Assembly (NCBI RefSeq): GCF_001644665.1 | Contig: NZ_CP011393.1 | Coordinates: 952,001-1,016,000, forward strand | Direction: 5' to 3' | Length of the DNA: 64,000 nt | Source of the DNA: Fervidobacterium pennivorans | GTDB taxonomy: Bacteria; Thermotogota; Thermotogae; Thermotogales; Fervidobacteriaceae | Shown: positions 31,132-38,042 of the stretch, piece after piece | How positions within the stretch are numbered: position 1 is the stretch's first letter | How the letters are laid out: every line of letters starts with the position of its first letter | Translations under genes and position numbers: made by a program | Notes under the pieces: model-generated | Databases searched by the model: none | What the model was told of the DNA's origin: nothing | Seen by the model: the letters and a program-made list of their open reading frames with translations, nothing else

Positions 31132-32982
31132 TTAATTTGCCGCTACTTCATCCTTGGGATTTTCACTTTCCTCGTTGCCATTTAGCATGGCTCTCAGTTC
31201 TTCGCCACTCATAATTTCTCTTTCAAGTAATACAGCAACTATCTGGTCCATTTTGGTGCGATTCTTTTCAAGTATTTGCTTTGCTCGTTCATAACAGCTC
31301 ATCACTATTTTTTGAATCTCATGGTCGATGAGTTTTGCAACATCTTCACTGTAATTACGAATTCTGGTGAGTTCTTTACCAAGGAAGACTTCTTGTTCCG
31401 TCTTTCCCCATGCAAGTGGACCGAAGCTTTCACTCATTCCGTACTCACAAACCATTTTCCTCGCGATTTCTGTTGCACGTTCTATATCGTTTGCTGCACC
31501 ACTTGTGAAATCACCAAAAACGAGCTCTTCAGCAGCCCTTCCACCAAGTAGTGTCGTTATGTTGTCAAGAAGTTCACTTTTGCTCACAAGGTATTTATCT
31601 TCCGCCGGAAGATGTAGCGTATAACCCAAAGCGGCATATCCGCGTGGGATTATAGATATTCTGTGTACAGGATCCGCGTTTGGTAACGAAGAACTTATAA
31701 TAGCATGGCCTACTTCATGATAGGCAACTATTCGCTTTTGCTTTTCAGAAATCATCCTTGATTTTCTTGCGGGTCCAGCTATTACTCTGTCTATCGCTTC
31801 TTCAAAATCCTCCATCTTAATGATGTTTCTCCCCGCCCTTGCAGCTAAAAGAGCGGCTTCATTGACCAAGTTTTCCAAATCTGCACCTACGAAGCCCGTA
31901 GTCCTTTTAGCTAAAAGCGAGACATCCACATCTTTGTCTATAGGTTTATTTCTTAAATGAACCCTCAATATTGCCTCTCGACCTTTCACATCTGGTGGAT
32001 CCACAACGATTTTCTTGTCAAACCTGCCGGGTCTCAAAAGTGCGGGGTCAAGTATATCAGGTCGGTTTGTTGCAGCCATCACTACGATTCCCTGGTTGAC
32101 ATCAAATCCATCCATTTCGACAAGTAACTGGTTTAACGTTTGTTCCCTCTCATCATGTCCTCCACCAAGGCCAGCCCCTCTGTGCCTACCAACTGCGTCA
32201 ATTTCGTCTATGAAGACTATACACGGTGCGCTTGCTTTTGCTTGCTCAAAAAGGTCTCTAACTCTCGCAGCTCCAACACCAACAAACAGCTCAACGAAAT
32301 CCGAACCGCTTATGTGGAAGAATGGAACATTAGCTTCCCCGGCAACCGCACGTGCAAGTAATGTTTTTCCAGTACCTGGAGGTCCTACAAGTAATATACC
32401 TTTAGGCATTCGTGCACCAATTTTCGCGTACTTACCAGGGTTCTTTAAAAAGTCAACAGTTTCTCTAAGCTCCTCAACTGCCTCATCAACGCCAGCAACA
32501 TCTTTAAACGTTACTTTTATTTTGTTAGGTCCCACTTTTTCTGCTCTGCTTTTTGTAAAATTAAAGGCTTGGTTGTTACCTCTCCCAAGTCCACGTATTA
32601 TGAAGGCAAAAAGTAGCAATGTCACTACAAACATTGCTATATTTCCTATCACATTTATCCAAAAAGAACTATCAACACTTCGCTCACCTTCAACAATAAT
32701 TCCATATTCAACGAGTTTATTGATTTTTTCGACATCGTATCTAAACCAGGGAGCGTAAACTGAATACAATTTTCCATTCTTTGTTTCAACTGAGATATTT
32801 CCGTCGTCTTTTATAATAACCTTTGCTATATCGGTTTCTCCATTACCTAACCGATTGACAAAATCGCTGTAACTCATATTTATTTCTACAACACCCTTTG
32901 AATTTACCAATCCTTGGTAAACCCAGAAGAGAAAGAGAGCTGTGAGTATGAAAAAAATAATTGAACTCAAGTTACGATTCAA
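31132..32982 (-). CDS. ftsH: ATP-dependent zinc metalloprotease FtsH
   Basis: A 616-residue membrane AAA protease. Two transmembrane helices (about 6-23 and 107-129) bracket a periplasmic domain. The AAA module has [26 protein letters not shown] and the pore/SRH region [16 protein letters not shown]. The M41 zinc site is HEVGH, with the third acidic ligand in the downstream region as expected. It degrades membrane and misfolded proteins. The start is a TTG at 32982 after AAAGGAGG, overlapping the end of tilS by 11 bases, so the two genes are coupled. Confidence 0.98.
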
Positions 32983-34327
32983 AATTTATACCTCCTTTCG
33001 AAACAATCTCCAGTCCCATTTCATCAAGGATTTTAGACTTGTAATACCCCGGCACGTAAATTACACGTTCGTTTAACACAACTATTGGTATCAACCTCCT
33101 CACGAAAGTCGGAACTTTCTTTTCGTTGAATACTTCTTTCAACTTTTTACCTTCATAGGTTTTGTCACCTTCATTCCAATTTCTCACAACCAAGCAAATT
33201 TTAGGAACATCAGATTTAATTATACCACGAATCACTAAATTAATAAAGTATCCGTTAATCTCTATACCCTTCATGAGTTTCCTCGTATAATCTTCGCTAT
33301 TATCTGATAGTTCAATAACAAATTTAAAAGGTTCAAAGCTTTTGATATTCCCAAGCATTACCCATCCGTGGGATACTTCAGCCCCTAGTTCTCCCCAAAA
33401 CGAAACCTTGAAAGATTTAGATTTATTGACATTTCTGGAAAAGCGTTCGATTTTTTCTCGGTCTAATGGTTTACCAAAGAATTGGAGTGAAAACCTGCGT
33501 AGTTGTTCAATTTGTAAAAACGGATTGTTGTGCAGTTTAAAAATCAACCTATTCTCCAAAATATACTTTTCAGTTCTTTCTATCACATGTTCAACATATT
33601 CATCCAATTCCCAAATACTAAGTGCCAAAGAAATTGCTGCACTTTCAAGTTTGGGATTGATTTTTTTGAGAAGTGGCACTATGCTGTGTCTTATATAATT
33701 CCTCTGATAATGTTCATCGTAATTCGACATATCAACTACATAATCCAAATTCCTATTTTTTGCATAAAGTTCTATCTCCTGCCTTGTGAAAAATAACAGG
33801 GGTCTGAAATAATTGTTCGAAATTATTTTCAGTCCAGCCAATCCAAAGGGACCTGTGCCCTTTGTAAACCGCATTATCATTGTCTCAAGTAAGTCATTAG
33901 CATTGTGGGCAGTCACTGTCAATTCGTAATGGTGTTCTTTCATAACTTGTTCAAGAAACCTGTATCTAAGAACTCTTGCAGCTTCCTCTATCGACATCTT
34001 ATTCTCCTGAGAAAAACTCCTGACATCAGCAGAGTCTGTGAAGAATTTAAATCCCATCAGCTCTGACTTGGCTTTTACAAACTCAACTTCTTCATCCGCT
34101 TCCGATCGAAGTTTGTGGTTGAACGTTGCAACACCTATTTGTAAGTTTTGCCTTTCCTTTTTTAGTCTGAAAAACAAATCAAGCATAGTTATTGAATCTA
34201 TTCCACCTGAGACAGCAAGAAGAAATGAATTAACTTCTGAGGCATATTCATCTATTATCCTTTTAAACTTTTCATAAAGGTCGAGCTTTTCAAAATTGTG
34301 AGAACTAAAATCTGTCAGATAAGCCAT
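32972..34327 (-). CDS. tilS: tRNA(Ile)-lysidine synthetase
   Basis: A 451-residue PP-loop enzyme. The signature SGGIDSITMLDLFF is near residue 39, and the following motifs THNANDLLETMIMRF and RPLL are typical. The C-terminal part matches the TilS substrate-binding region. It adds lysine to C34 of tRNA-Ile2 so that AUA is read as isoleucine. The ATG at 34327 is chosen since it lies 11 bases after the upstream stop; a GTG at 34348 would give seven more residues and an 11-base overlap. Neither has a strong ribosome site, so translation may depend on coupling to the Lpt-fusion gene. Confidence 0.93.
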   Translation of the reverse strand: MAYLTDFSSHNFEKLDLYEKFKRIIDEYASEVNSFLLAVSGGIDSITMLDLFFRLKKERQNLQIGVATFNHKLRSEADEEVEFVKAKSELMGFKFFTDSADVRSFSQENKMSIEEAARVLRYRFLEQVMKEHHYELTVTAHNANDLLETMIMRFTKGTGPFGLAGLKIISNNYFRPLLFFTRQEIELYAKNRNLDYVVDMSNYDEHYQRNYIRHSIVPLLKKINPKLESAAISLALSIWELDEYVEHVIERTEKYILENRLIFKLHNNPFLQIEQLRRFSLQFFGKPLDREKIERFSRNVNKSKSFKVSFWGELGAEVSHGWVMLGNIKSFEPFKFVIELSDNSEDYTRKLMKGIEINGYFINLVIRGIIKSDVPKICLVVRNWNEGDKTYEGKKLKEVFNEKKVPTFVRRLIPIVVLNERVIYVPGYYKSKILDEMGLEIVSKGGINFES

Positions 34328-34337
34328 ACTTTTGTTA

Positions 34338-37300
34338 TCACATCCCACTGAATTGGAATTGACCTGCCTTTGGATCCAAAAGGAAGAAAATGTCAGATAT
34401 GTCTGTAAGATAGAACTTAAATGTAAGCTTATCCAAAAAGTCTAACCAGTTACCAGTGCTTTTATATGATAAGTCTACACCTACAAGAAGTCTCCAACAA
34501 TGCAAAGACTTATCAATTGATAAATTCATGCTATCAATAACATTTCTTGATGGGTCGTACCTAAGCTTTATATAAATATTTGGGTCAATCTTTTTTGTGC
34601 TCAATTCAAGAAGATACCTTTTTGTATTATCTGTGTTGTACGATATTACATACTTCTCATCCTTCCTTTCCATACTGTAAGACAAGCTCCAATTCGGTTC
34701 TGCTCCTGCTGTTCGCACGTAGTAAGTTCCACTTATCTTAGTATTGTAATCAAACAAGTTAAACGAACCGGACACGGTAGCTCGCTCTATGTAGTCAGGT
34801 TTCTGATAAATCGTTGCACTAAGATTAGAATATTTTAGAGTGTGAATATACATCGTTATTGGATTCCCAGGAGTTACTGAGAATTGCAAAGAGTAACTTG
34901 TTTGAATGTCTTTAAGATTAACCCCAACATTTATATTCTGAACACCAAGCTTCGCATTCTTATTATCATATGCTCCAGAGATTGAACCGTTTGTATTGAT
35001 TAGGCCAAATTGCTCTGAAAAACTTATAGAAAACGTGTCTTGTAACTGTGTGTTATTCAGAAAGTCAACACCTCTACTAATACTTGCTGTCAAGTTCTGA
35101 GAGTTCAGGTTAAAGGTAAGTTTAAAGATGTTTTTGTTAGTTGTCTTTGGTTCGTCCAGAAATGCAAAAGATTGTTCCCAGCTACCTGTAAGTCGAAATG
35201 GACCAATATTGTAGCTTAAATCTACAAGGTATCTATCAGACATACCAAGTGATTCTGTTTTTGTTGCAGATATGTTTGAAACACCCTTGATACTGAAAGT
35301 ATAGTTGAAATTCGTAGTGAACGAATCCCATTTGAAAGTCCAAGGAAGTTGATAAGTATAAAGAAAAGTTCTGCTATGACCACTTTCAGATAACGTGCCG
35401 GACATGTTGAGAGTATACTTTATGTCATTATTGGCGATATTCAAATTATATGTACCTCGGTACGTTGGCACCCAATCTCTTTCTAACGATGTTAAATATC
35501 CATCAGTTCTTATCTGTAAATTGTTATCGAAGCTAAAGTTGAGTCTATTAGCATCTAAGATGACAAAAGACATATTTCTGATGCCACCGTTAATATAAAT
35601 TATCGTATCTGTCAAACGTGCATCGTACATTATGTAAGGCTTGAAATAAAGTTGTGCCTTCTCATCTTGTAATGAAAGTCCTATTCTTTGGTAATAGTTA
35701 GCGTCCGAGAGGTAGTTACTTTCAAGGTACACAATACCATCGTATTTATAATATATTGTTTTGTTGGAATATCTATAAGTCAGTGGAAAGAGGGTAAACT
35801 CAAATCTGTCTGCTTTTAGGTCGTATGCTACTTTATTCAGTTTGTTAACGTTATCGTTGGCTTGAAACGTTACGTTGTCTGTTCCCAAAGCCAACTTCGT
35901 ATTCCAGTTGTTAACATTAAAAGCAAAAGTTTGAGAAACTCCAAATGTATTACCTAAAGTAAAAGTCAAAGAATATGGTGGTTCACCTTGAAGAGCTGTT
36001 ACAAAAACTGGGTATGGGAAAATGGGAACTCCAAGAACTACAAGGAATGAGTTCGTGGCAATTATGTATTTGTTTTCCAAAACATAAACTTCTTCTGAAA
36101 GTATCAAATAATGAGGTTCTTCATAGCTACAAGTAGTTATCGAAGGGTTACGTATTTCTATTTGCATCTTTTTCTCGTCATCGATGTTTTCGACTTCTAT
36201 CTCTGAACCATATACATATATGGGAACGTTTTTACCTTTGTAATTGTAATTATAGATAGTTTTTGCGTTAACTACAAGCACCCTACTTGTTTCAAAGTGG
36301 TAAGTAAGCGATTTTGCGACGTATTTCCTATCACCATCGTAGAATGACACATTTCCTGAGGCGAATACTGTTTTTACCTTACCGGACTCCAGTGTAGCAG
36401 TTGCCTCATCACATTCTAGTCTGTATTTATCCCATACTACTGTAATTTTGTCTTTCAAAAAGACAGAATTTTCCGAAAAATTCGCGATATTTGCAGTAAC
36501 TTTCAAATCACCAGCAAAACCTGTTGATAAAAGAATGAAAGAAAAAGAAGCAACAATCAAAAACACTACAAAAAATCTACTGAGGATTTCTCTTGCTCTG
36601 TAAGCTATCGGGGTATCCATAAGCAAGTAAAGTATGAGCCCCACCACTGCGAACAGGATGTTTGGCAACCACGTAGCCAATACTGGATCCATAAGTCCTT
36701 CTTTTCCCATACCAGAAAGCCAGGCACCGGAACCTTGATAAAGCACAACAAGTACGAACGTCAAAATCACACTCCAAGATTTGCTTGAAAAACCAAAGAG
36801 CAAAGATACAGGCAAGCCTATGAGTACTATAACTAATGAACCAAGGGCTGTTGCATAACGTTGATGTAATTCCACAGTCAGAGATGCAGTATTTATACCT
36901 AATTTCTTGTAGGTCTCGAGTTGTTCGCGAAGTTCCTTTGAGGTTTTATCACGAGTTGTTTTATAGGCTCTAAGCATCTGCTCAATCTCCCCTGCAACGT
37001 CTAACTTCATTTCCTTAAACTGCATATCAAGCTTCAGAAATCCGGTTTCTAGTTCAACAATATACATGTTACCATCGAGCAAATACCAGCCATCTGCTTT
37101 CTTTATGACTTTCTTTGATGTTAAAATTTGTTCGTTTCCTTCCTCGTTTCTAAAAAGAACGACATCGTATAGTTCCCCTTTTTGCTTGTCATATTGCTTT
37201 ACGTAAAAGTAAACGTCTTTTTCAAGCTCTACAAGCATATTTGTCTTGATAACGGTTTCTGGAGCTTGAAGAATATATTGATTTAATACTTGTGATGATT

Positions 37301-37682
37301 TGTAATTTGCGTTAGGAACGATGTAATCATTCAGAAGCCAAGAAAAAAATCCCAAGATTATTGAAAGAATCAAAAACGGGGTCACGAGTCTTTTTGACGA
37401 AATTCCATGGACCAGTATTGCGGTAATTTCCTTATTCGTCGACATTTCGCTAATCACCCAAAATATCGCGAAAAGCACGCCCACCGGTATGCCAAGAACC
37501 GTGAAATAAGGAATGTTGTATGCGACAAACAATAAAAGCTTTGAAACCCCTACCCTGTTTCTTATTATATAGTCGGAGATTTGGTATAACCACTCGACAC
37601 TTACAAAGACAATGAACCCGGCAAGTCCCATGAAAAAAGGCTTAAGTGATTGTTTGAGTACGTATTTTGTGAGAGTTTTCAG
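34338..37682 (-). CDS. LptF/LptG permease fused to LptA/LptD-like domains
   Basis: About 1114 residues. Residues 1-360 are an LptF/LptG-type permease: an N-terminal helix beginning LTKYVLKQSLKPFF, three helices, a periplasmic beta-jellyroll (about 150-285) and three more helices ending near 355. A seventh helix (about 370-388) leads into a LptA/OstA-like beta domain (about 390-490: FASGNVSFYDGDRKYVAKSL). Then comes the LptD hallmark ITTCSYEEPHYLIL near 515 and LGVPIFPYPVF near 550, followed by about 550 beta-rich residues like an outer-membrane barrel. It may span both membranes alone. The start is a CTG at 37682 with AGGAGGG 7 bases upstream; the frame has no ATG, GTG or TTG between the in-frame stop and 37631. 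The first in-frame ATG (37631) would remove part of helix 1. It overlaps nothing upstream and is followed by tilS. Confidence 0.85.
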   Translation of the reverse strand: MKTLTKYVLKQSLKPFFMGLAGFIVFVSVEWLYQISDYIIRNRVGVSKLLLFVAYNIPYFTVLGIPVGVLFAIFWVISEMSTNKEITAILVHGISSKRLVTPFLILSIILGFFSWLLNDYIVPNANYKSSQVLNQYILQAPETVIKTNMLVELEKDVYFYVKQYDKQKGELYDVVLFRNEEGNEQILTSKKVIKKADGWYLLDGNMYIVELETGFLKLDMQFKEMKLDVAGEIEQMLRAYKTTRDKTSKELREQLETYKKLGINTASLTVELHQRYATALGSLVIVLIGLPVSLLFGFSSKSWSVILTFVLVVLYQGSGAWLSGMGKEGLMDPVLATWLPNILFAVVGLILYLLMDTPIAYRAREILSRFFVVFLIVASFSFILLSTGFAGDLKVTANIANFSENSVFLKDKITVVWDKYRLECDEATATLESGKVKTVFASGNVSFYDGDRKYVAKSLTYHFETSRVLVVNAKTIYNYNYKGKNVPIYVYGSEIEVENIDDEKKMQIEIRNPSITTCSYEEPHYLILSEEVYVLENKYIIATNSFLVVLGVPIFPYPVFVTALQGEPPYSLTFTLGNTFGVSQTFAFNVNNWNTKLALGTDNVTFQANDNVNKLNKVAYDLKADRFEFTLFPLTYRYSNKTIYYKYDGIVYLESNYLSDANYYQRIGLSLQDEKAQLYFKPYIMYDARLTDTIIYINGGIRNMSFVILDANRLNFSFDNNLQIRTDGYLTSLERDWVPTYRGTYNLNIANNDIKYTLNMSGTLSESGHSRTFLYTYQLPWTFKWDSFTTNFNYTFSIKGVSNISATKTESLGMSDRYLVDLSYNIGPFRLTGSWEQSFAFLDEPKTTNKNIFKLTFNLNSQNLTASISRGVDFLNNTQLQDTFSISFSEQFGLINTNGSISGAYDNKNAKLGVQNINVGVNLKDIQTSYSLQFSVTPGNPITMYIHTLKYSNLSATIYQKPDYIERATVSGSFNLFDYNTKISGTYYVRTAGAEPNWSLSYSMERKDEKYVISYNTDNTKRYLLELSTKKIDPNIYIKLRYDPSRNVIDSMNLSIDKSLHCWRLLVGVDLSYKSTGNWLDFLDKLTFKFYLTDISDIFFLLDPKAGQFQFSGM

Positions 37683-37701
37683 AGTATATCCCTCCTACGT
37701 A

Positions 37702-37728
37702 AAAGTATGGTATAAATATTTTAGTCAA
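37702..37728 (-). promoter_or_regulatory. Possible promoter of the Lpt-fusion gene
   Basis: On the minus strand TTGACT, 15 bases, TACTTT, about 20 bases upstream of the CTG start. The spacer is short; the TTGACT abuts the edge of the IS110 relic. Confidence 0.4.
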
Positions 37729-37733
37729 AAAAT

Positions 37734-37870
37734 AGGCAGGGCAGGACGACTTAGTGTCCCTTGGCTTTCAAGCCATTACGGGAGTCTGTCGCCTGCCTTT
37801 AACCATGATAAGTTGGTTGGGTTTTTAACCCTCGTCACACTGGAGGTTTGGTTCAGCAGGCCCCTGCCCT
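37734..37870 (+). ncRNA. Structured left-end region, candidate IS110 bridge RNA remnant
   Basis: AGGCAGG (37734-37740) pairs with CCTGCCT (37792-37798); inside it CGAC pairs with GTCG (37788-37791), TCCC with GGGA (37780-37783), and GGCT with AGCC, giving a nested hairpin. A second hairpin is GGGTT/AACCC (37819-37831). AGGGCAGG (37738-37745) can also pair with CCTGCCCT (37863-37870), closing the whole 133-base segment. IS110 elements encode a bridge RNA in this position, 5' of the transposase gene. Assignment is inference. Confidence 0.45.
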
Positions 37871-37907
37871 CGCCTTTTAACCTATTCAATCGAAAGGAGG
37901 TTTTAGT

Positions 37908-38042
37908 ATGTCTCAAAACTTCTCCATCTTTGTCGGTATTGACATCTCCAAGCATAAGTTCAACGCCTGTGCTATCCAAAATCCTAATTCTATCATCTTC
38001 GAATCTGCTTTCGATATGTCCAAACAAGGGTTTTCCTCCTGA
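37908..38042 (+). pseudogene. IS110-family transposase, N-terminal fragment
   Basis: 44 codons, starting MSQNFSIFVGIDISKHKFNAC. The VGIDISK motif holds the first catalytic aspartate of the DEDD (RuvC-like) domain of IS110 transposases. The ribosome site AAAGGAGG is intact. A TGA ends the frame after FDMSKQGFSS, and the following DNA no longer looks like transposase; full proteins exceed 300 residues. The fragment cannot be active. Confidence 0.82.

Follow-up and report, generated by a model that had tools for sequence, protein, structure and literature searches.

A reading frame conserved in Thermotogota and Bipolaricaulota joins an LptF/G-type permease to LptD and may encode a precursor of two proteins

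The genome of Fervidobacterium pennivorans encodes a lipid permease of the LptF/LptG family and an LptD in one uninterrupted reading frame, the two halves being joined through a seventh hydrophobic helix that resembles a signal peptide. The gene lies in the window analyzed here (the whole 64,000-nucleotide stretch, in whose numbering positions are given unless another sequence is named; Table 1), and the same fusion is found throughout most of two phyla, the Thermotogota and the Bipolaricaulota. We propose that its product is a precursor polyprotein that would be cut into permease and LptD, probably by signal peptidase I, and we give this reading, which is built on sequence comparison and structural modeling, a probability of roughly 0.6. 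No description of a permease-LptD fusion was found in the openly accessible literature, and earlier notice of it is possible.

Table 1. Features of the fusion gene and its immediate surroundings, in window coordinates
Feature	Position	Strand	Basis or remark
Fusion gene: LptF/G permease + internal signal-peptide-like helix + LptD	34338..37682	-	1114 aa
Shine-Dalgarno AGGAGG	37691..37696	-	8 nt before CTG start; from sequence
Residues 1-354, LptF/LptG permease, six TM helices	36621..37682	-	PF03739; PDB LptF/LptG matches; model
Residues 355-370, basic linker, length constant across Thermotogota	36573..36620	-	Second permease gene of split genome G005 ends here
Residues 371-391, helix 7, signal-peptide-like	36510..36572	-	Nonpolar stretch after a basic flank; GD preceded by GFA
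Residues 392-516, LptA/LptD N-terminal type jellyroll (beta-taco)	36135..36509	-	Profiles, model
Residues 515-569, LptD hallmark TTC...PHY...N...P....P	35976..36140	-	Invariant C518 at 36129-36131
Residues 570-1112, beta-strand-rich half, presumed LptD barrel	34347..35975	-	C1062 (LHCW) at 34497-34499
tilS (neighbor; context, outside the system)	32972..34348	-	GTG start overlaps fusion-gene end

Results

The frame is intact on the minus strand from position 37682 to a stop codon at 34338-34340 (1114 residues), and it opens with a CTG start codon (37680-37682); the homologous start residue is also encoded by CTG in close relatives and by TTG, GTG, or ATG in more distant ones. Downstream, ftsH comes after tilS, and the other flank carries phoU-like, NAD kinase, and ruvB genes. 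A ruvB gene is located near the fusion gene in many genomes of both Thermotogota and Bipolaricaulota; the best PDB matches of the RuvB in the window are 1in4-1in8 and 1j7k, which we take to be RuvB of Thermotoga maritima. The interval separating the fusion gene from the phoU-like gene contains an element (37735-37880, minus strand) that has a strong fold with a GC-rich closing stem followed by a T run (z-score of -3.0 for the surrounding stretch, 37715-37960). It matched no Rfam family at an E value of ≤1, had no copy in the relatives compared, including those of the same genus, and may represent a lineage-specific RNA or a mobile-element terminus.

Residues 6-352 match the Pfam family PF03739 (LptF_LptG) with an E value of 1.7e-74 (251.5 bits against a cutoff of 27.9), and the match covers positions 1-351 of the 353 in the model. 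Together with Foldseek matches to LptF/G, this confirms the permease layout that the first-pass annotation had read from the sequence. In the secondary structure of our model, the periplasmic beta domain of the permease falls at approximately residues 145-227, between TM3 and TM4. Scores fell below both NCBIfam equivalog cutoffs (TIGR04407, 138 bits versus 230; TIGR04408, 132 versus 240), and judged by these profiles the protein is a member of the LptF/LptG family that is neither LptF nor LptG proper. A search for a second half-permease, proposed together with that layout, recovered a single PF03739 match in the whole genome, the fusion gene itself. Since there is only one permease gene, the permease is probably a homodimer.

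The remainder of the protein is more divergent. LptA/LptD similarity beyond the permease part went undetected in single-sequence searches of Pfam, NCBIfam, and PDB, and neither Pfam model of LptD (PF04453 and PF19838) matches the window protein; the same models also fail on three of the five separately encoded LptDs used here and match the other two. PF03968 was found in the jellyroll part of several relatives' frames. A profile built from 59 family members matched solved LptD chains over positions ∼390 to 623 (E values of 2.1e-9 and 1.1e-7) and LptA chains weakly, and an hhalign comparison with separately encoded LptDs of other phyla gave a probability of 99.9% (E value of 5.9e-32 over 221 columns), in an alignment that comprises the jellyroll and hallmark and leaves the barrel unaligned.

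Two cysteines add to this assignment. C518, in the TTC motif, is invariant (59/59 sequences), and C1062 is present in most of the 59 as HC(W/L) or LHC(W/L); separate LptDs from many phyla share both TTC and [RK][DN]LHCW. In Escherichia coli LptD, the C173-C725 disulfide links the jellyroll to the beta24-beta25 turn (PMC12644819), and in our AlphaFold2 model C1062 likewise falls within a turn that precedes two long strands. An LptD-type cysteine pair thus appears to be conserved, with C518 in the jellyroll and C1062 in the turn before the last two strands of the presumed barrel. In seven Thermotogota copies from two genera (L036-L038, L077, and L079-L081), histidine replaces the second cysteine (HHW) alongside an intact TTC, which precludes the disulfide in those genera; a few other copies also lack the second cysteine.

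The AlphaFold2 model of the whole chain (mean pLDDT of 83.9) contains the helices, the expected jellyroll, and a strand-rich C-terminal half, and its top Foldseek matches are to LptD (E value of 9e-20), followed by LptF/G. Strands in the C-terminal half have pLDDT values mostly between 85 and 96, but number ∼36 versus 26 in LptD, and TM-scores to LptD are 0.2 to 0.38; a separate model of the LptD part alone did no better. These low scores, the strand count, and the unmatched Pfam models could indicate that this half, instead of being an outer-membrane LptD, serves the toga in some other capacity as a periplasmic beta protein. We regard this as very improbable given the profile match across jellyroll and hallmark, the cysteine pair conserved at both ends, and the rank of LptD among the structural matches. 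The fused protein of one family (f9; L055-L059) is ∼350 residues longer, mostly in the LptD half, and the barrel or its loops seem enlarged there.

Taken together, frame, profiles, and model bear out the original description of ∼1114 codons carrying a permease, an extra helix, an LptA-like jellyroll, and an LptD. The family-profile and hhalign matches and the invariant TTC sustain its LptA/OstA-like domain and hallmark, whereas its LptD-type C-terminal half holds up in beta-strand content, the LHCW cysteine, and the leading structural matches but not in any Pfam LptD match.

We identified PF03739 in 100 of 103 Thermotogota genomes, nearly all with one gene each. Frames in this phylum are mostly 1050 to 1490 aa long, and broken or short ones come mostly from fragmented assemblies. 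Most of the 60 Bipolaricaulota genomes likewise have one gene (frames of ∼970 to 1435 aa). In a wide rather than exhaustive sampling of other phyla, the permease was present in ∼160 of ∼190 genomes; among the matches listed, it was usually encoded by two separate genes of 360 to 500 residues each, and some longer frames were both permeases together. Among the same matches, permease and LptD genes were apart in these ∼160 genomes, with the fusion in one outsider (G202); named records, matched in a contig scan with a Bipolaricaulota alignment, identify its phylum as Candidatus Bipolaricaulota. A contig titled Thermotoga sp. (DYGJ01000087.1; L202) carries a Bipolaricaulota-type fusion with 67% identity and may be mislabeled.

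A phylogenetic analysis of the permeases placed Thermotogota in one clade (support of 100) and Bipolaricaulota in another (99), with the two as sisters (87). With this moderate support for the sister relationship, the simplest reading of the tree would be a single origin of the fusion before the two phyla split. In two genomes of other phyla (L222 in G230 and L238 in G114), a stand-alone permease gene is immediately followed by a stand-alone lptD of equal orientation, which is the order found in the fusion and plausibly represents the state before it arose. Because lptF and lptD are adjacent and codirectional in at least these two other lineages, a lost stop codon could have fused the two, and the fusion might then be an accident without functional meaning, or else an assembly frameshift between two genes. 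Such an origin is scarcely credible for a single frame common to nearly all Thermotogota and most Bipolaricaulota genomes, complete single-contig genomes included, with invariant residues on both sides of the junction. Conservation across two phyla excludes a sequencing or frameshift artifact, which had been named at the outset as grounds for discarding the fusion.

Potential partners are encoded elsewhere in the genome. The LptB-type ATPase that was to be looked for is present (304.5 bits against a cutoff of 240; G000:C1:1050747-1051445), in a gene 61 kb from the fusion gene that adjoins an OmpH/Skp-like gene, and BamA is also encoded. The genome contains in addition a separate LptA-like protein with LptD_N and LptC matches, and this protein is kept in most of the Thermotogota. 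Its gene belongs to a run at L144:3111-6654 (G000:C1, about 638.6-642.2 kb), just downstream of an SLH/coiled-coil Omp-alpha-like gene, a patatin gene, and a second patatin-like gene, all in the same direction, which suggests a single outer-envelope operon.

LpxC was found in none of 103 Thermotogota and none of 40 Bipolaricaulota genomes, with positive controls in E. coli and others. For Thermotogae this absence agrees with a previous report (PMC5007114) and with the initial premise that these bacteria have no classical lipopolysaccharide (LPS). LPS was considered as the cargo and rejected on these grounds: without LpxC, the cargo is not lipid A-based LPS. The missing pathway supports the earlier suggestion that another lipid or glycolipid is carried, and glycolipids have been proposed as the cargo of Lpt-like systems without LPS (PMC10353723).

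What helix 7 does is most clearly indicated by a natural split. One genome, G005, falls within the Thermotogota beside fused relatives (support of 96 in the permease tree) and encodes permeases of 376 and 394 residues in tandem, both ending just short of the helix 7 position, together with an LptD of 849 residues elsewhere in the genome (the loci are L048 and L177). This LptD matches the fused family along its whole length (E value of 2.2e-96) and has an N-terminal signal peptide in place of helix 7. The arrangement looks like a secondary fission accompanied by permease duplication. Alignments with separate LptDs of other phyla also begin just past helix 7, with signal peptides preceding the aligned region.

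Helix 7 itself has diverged far more than its neighbors. Its mean pairwise identity within Thermotogota is 0.21 and its length ranges from 14 to 27, whereas TM1-6 have identities of 0.44 to 0.80 and no length variation. A basic flank precedes it in nearly all members, and we place a candidate signal peptidase I site directly behind A391. The sites that close the helix in Bipolaricaulota are of textbook type (such as AFA before QDEE, AWA before QEPP, and AQA before AP), and some Thermotogota sites are weaker, for example with serine or glycine at -1. Model confidence is <50 at residues 384-390. A simple signal peptidase site score, tried twice (the second run covering helices other than helix 7 of Bipolaricaulota), did not discriminate between helix 7 and the TM3 or TM5 ends, and the motif by itself therefore has no value as proof. 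The nonpolar run has a median of 16 residues and reaches 22, and some copies are therefore long enough to serve as plain membrane anchors.

Such an anchor is what a permanent bridge would use. In that arrangement, which the first-pass annotation favored, the polypeptide would stay uncut, joining an inner-membrane half-permease to an outer-membrane barrel with helix 7 as a lasting anchor like that of LptC; the jellyroll would extend the lipid groove from permease to barrel, and the chains of a homodimer would serve two barrels. The uninterrupted frame conserved in two phyla fits this arrangement, as does the domain order, since LptC has a jellyroll behind a TM helix and LptD has a barrel behind a jellyroll. 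Retention of the fusion over two phyla, with one clear fission, also hints that the covalent link might matter, an argument against cleavage. Several observations weaken the bridge, without refuting it, to the point where we consider it unlikely. Helix 7 is the least conserved helix and the sole one to vary in length, and the corresponding position in separate LptDs is taken by an N-terminal signal peptide that looks cleavable. The separate LptA-like protein is retained. Finally, the Omp-alpha protein of T. maritima has been reported to be a rod of 50 nm, as long as the two membranes are apart (PMC5082667); a single jellyroll of ∼11 strands would extend roughly 5 to 6 nm, as estimated from strand spacing, and this mismatch favors cutting.

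Cleavage could also be partial, or the protein could function only where the membranes touch, with intact and cut forms both having roles. The good sites at the helix 7 ends in Bipolaricaulota and the weaker ones in some Thermotogota are compatible with this, and we consider it improbable. We retain the cleaved precursor as our working model.

Discussion

According to the cleaved-precursor model, the N-terminal 354 residues would become an LptF/G half-permease of the inner membrane, and two of these would probably pair with two copies of LptB. Helix 7 would act as an internal signal peptide for the downstream LptD part, and signal peptidase I would cut after it, near A391, so that helix 7 would stay with the permease and an LptD of ∼720 residues would be released. 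BamA would then insert the freed LptD in the outer membrane, a single disulfide (C518-C1062) would tie its jellyroll to the barrel, and the separate LptA-like protein would connect it with the permease. The resulting machine would supply the outer membrane (toga) with a lipid or glycolipid other than lipid A-based LPS.

These findings have several implications for the diderm cell envelope. A 2022 survey reported that nearly all of the outer-membrane genes it examined are missing from Thermotogae and that only diderms with LPS have LptD (PMC8871954); our analysis places a conserved LptD in phyla where that survey reported almost no outer-membrane genes, which is relevant to the question of a diderm last bacterial common ancestor. 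Thermotogota and Bipolaricaulota have both been described with an outer membrane that is detached at the poles (PMC10665443), and the fusion is a molecular trait that the two have in common. With one permease and no lipid A, this reduced Lpt machine has a cargo and a coupling mechanism that are open to study. If the product is cut, it would be a bacterial polyprotein that feeds two membranes; if it truly remains uncut, it would form a covalent trans-envelope bridge, with two attached exit pores per homodimeric pump, in two LPS-free phyla.

Other Lpt systems share parts of this arrangement. The Lpt cluster of diderm Firmicutes resembles it in having LptB, a single LptF/G homolog, and OstA-domain proteins, but no LptD homolog was found there (PMC5007114), whereas the Thermotogota have an LptD that is fused to the permease. 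Borrelia and Treponema have Lpt-like systems that likewise keep Lpt parts without LPS and for which glycolipid is the proposed cargo; the accessible part of that account (PMC10353723) describes six proteins for the Borrelia system, makes no mention of a permease-LptD fusion, and cites Putker 2015 for Lpt orthologs in Thermus and Thermotoga (T. maritima). The proteobacterial system (LptB2FGC-LptA-LptDE) is similar in its LptF/G-type permease, LptB, LptA-like jellyroll protein, and LptD hallmark with a cysteine pair, but it uses LptF plus LptG where the Thermotogota have one permease gene, encodes in separate genes what is here permease and LptD in one frame, and operates in hosts with lipid A, which the Thermotogota, without LpxC, do not have. 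E. coli LptD also has two disulfides, of which the Thermotogota fusion can form only one. For the layout itself, a precedent is FbcH, the cytochrome b/c1 precursor of Bradyrhizobium, in which an inner-membrane protein, an internal signal sequence, and a second protein are encoded together and cut by signal peptidase. The proteins are unrelated and the second product of FbcH is not an outer-membrane protein, but the organization of one frame with two products is the same as the one that we propose here.
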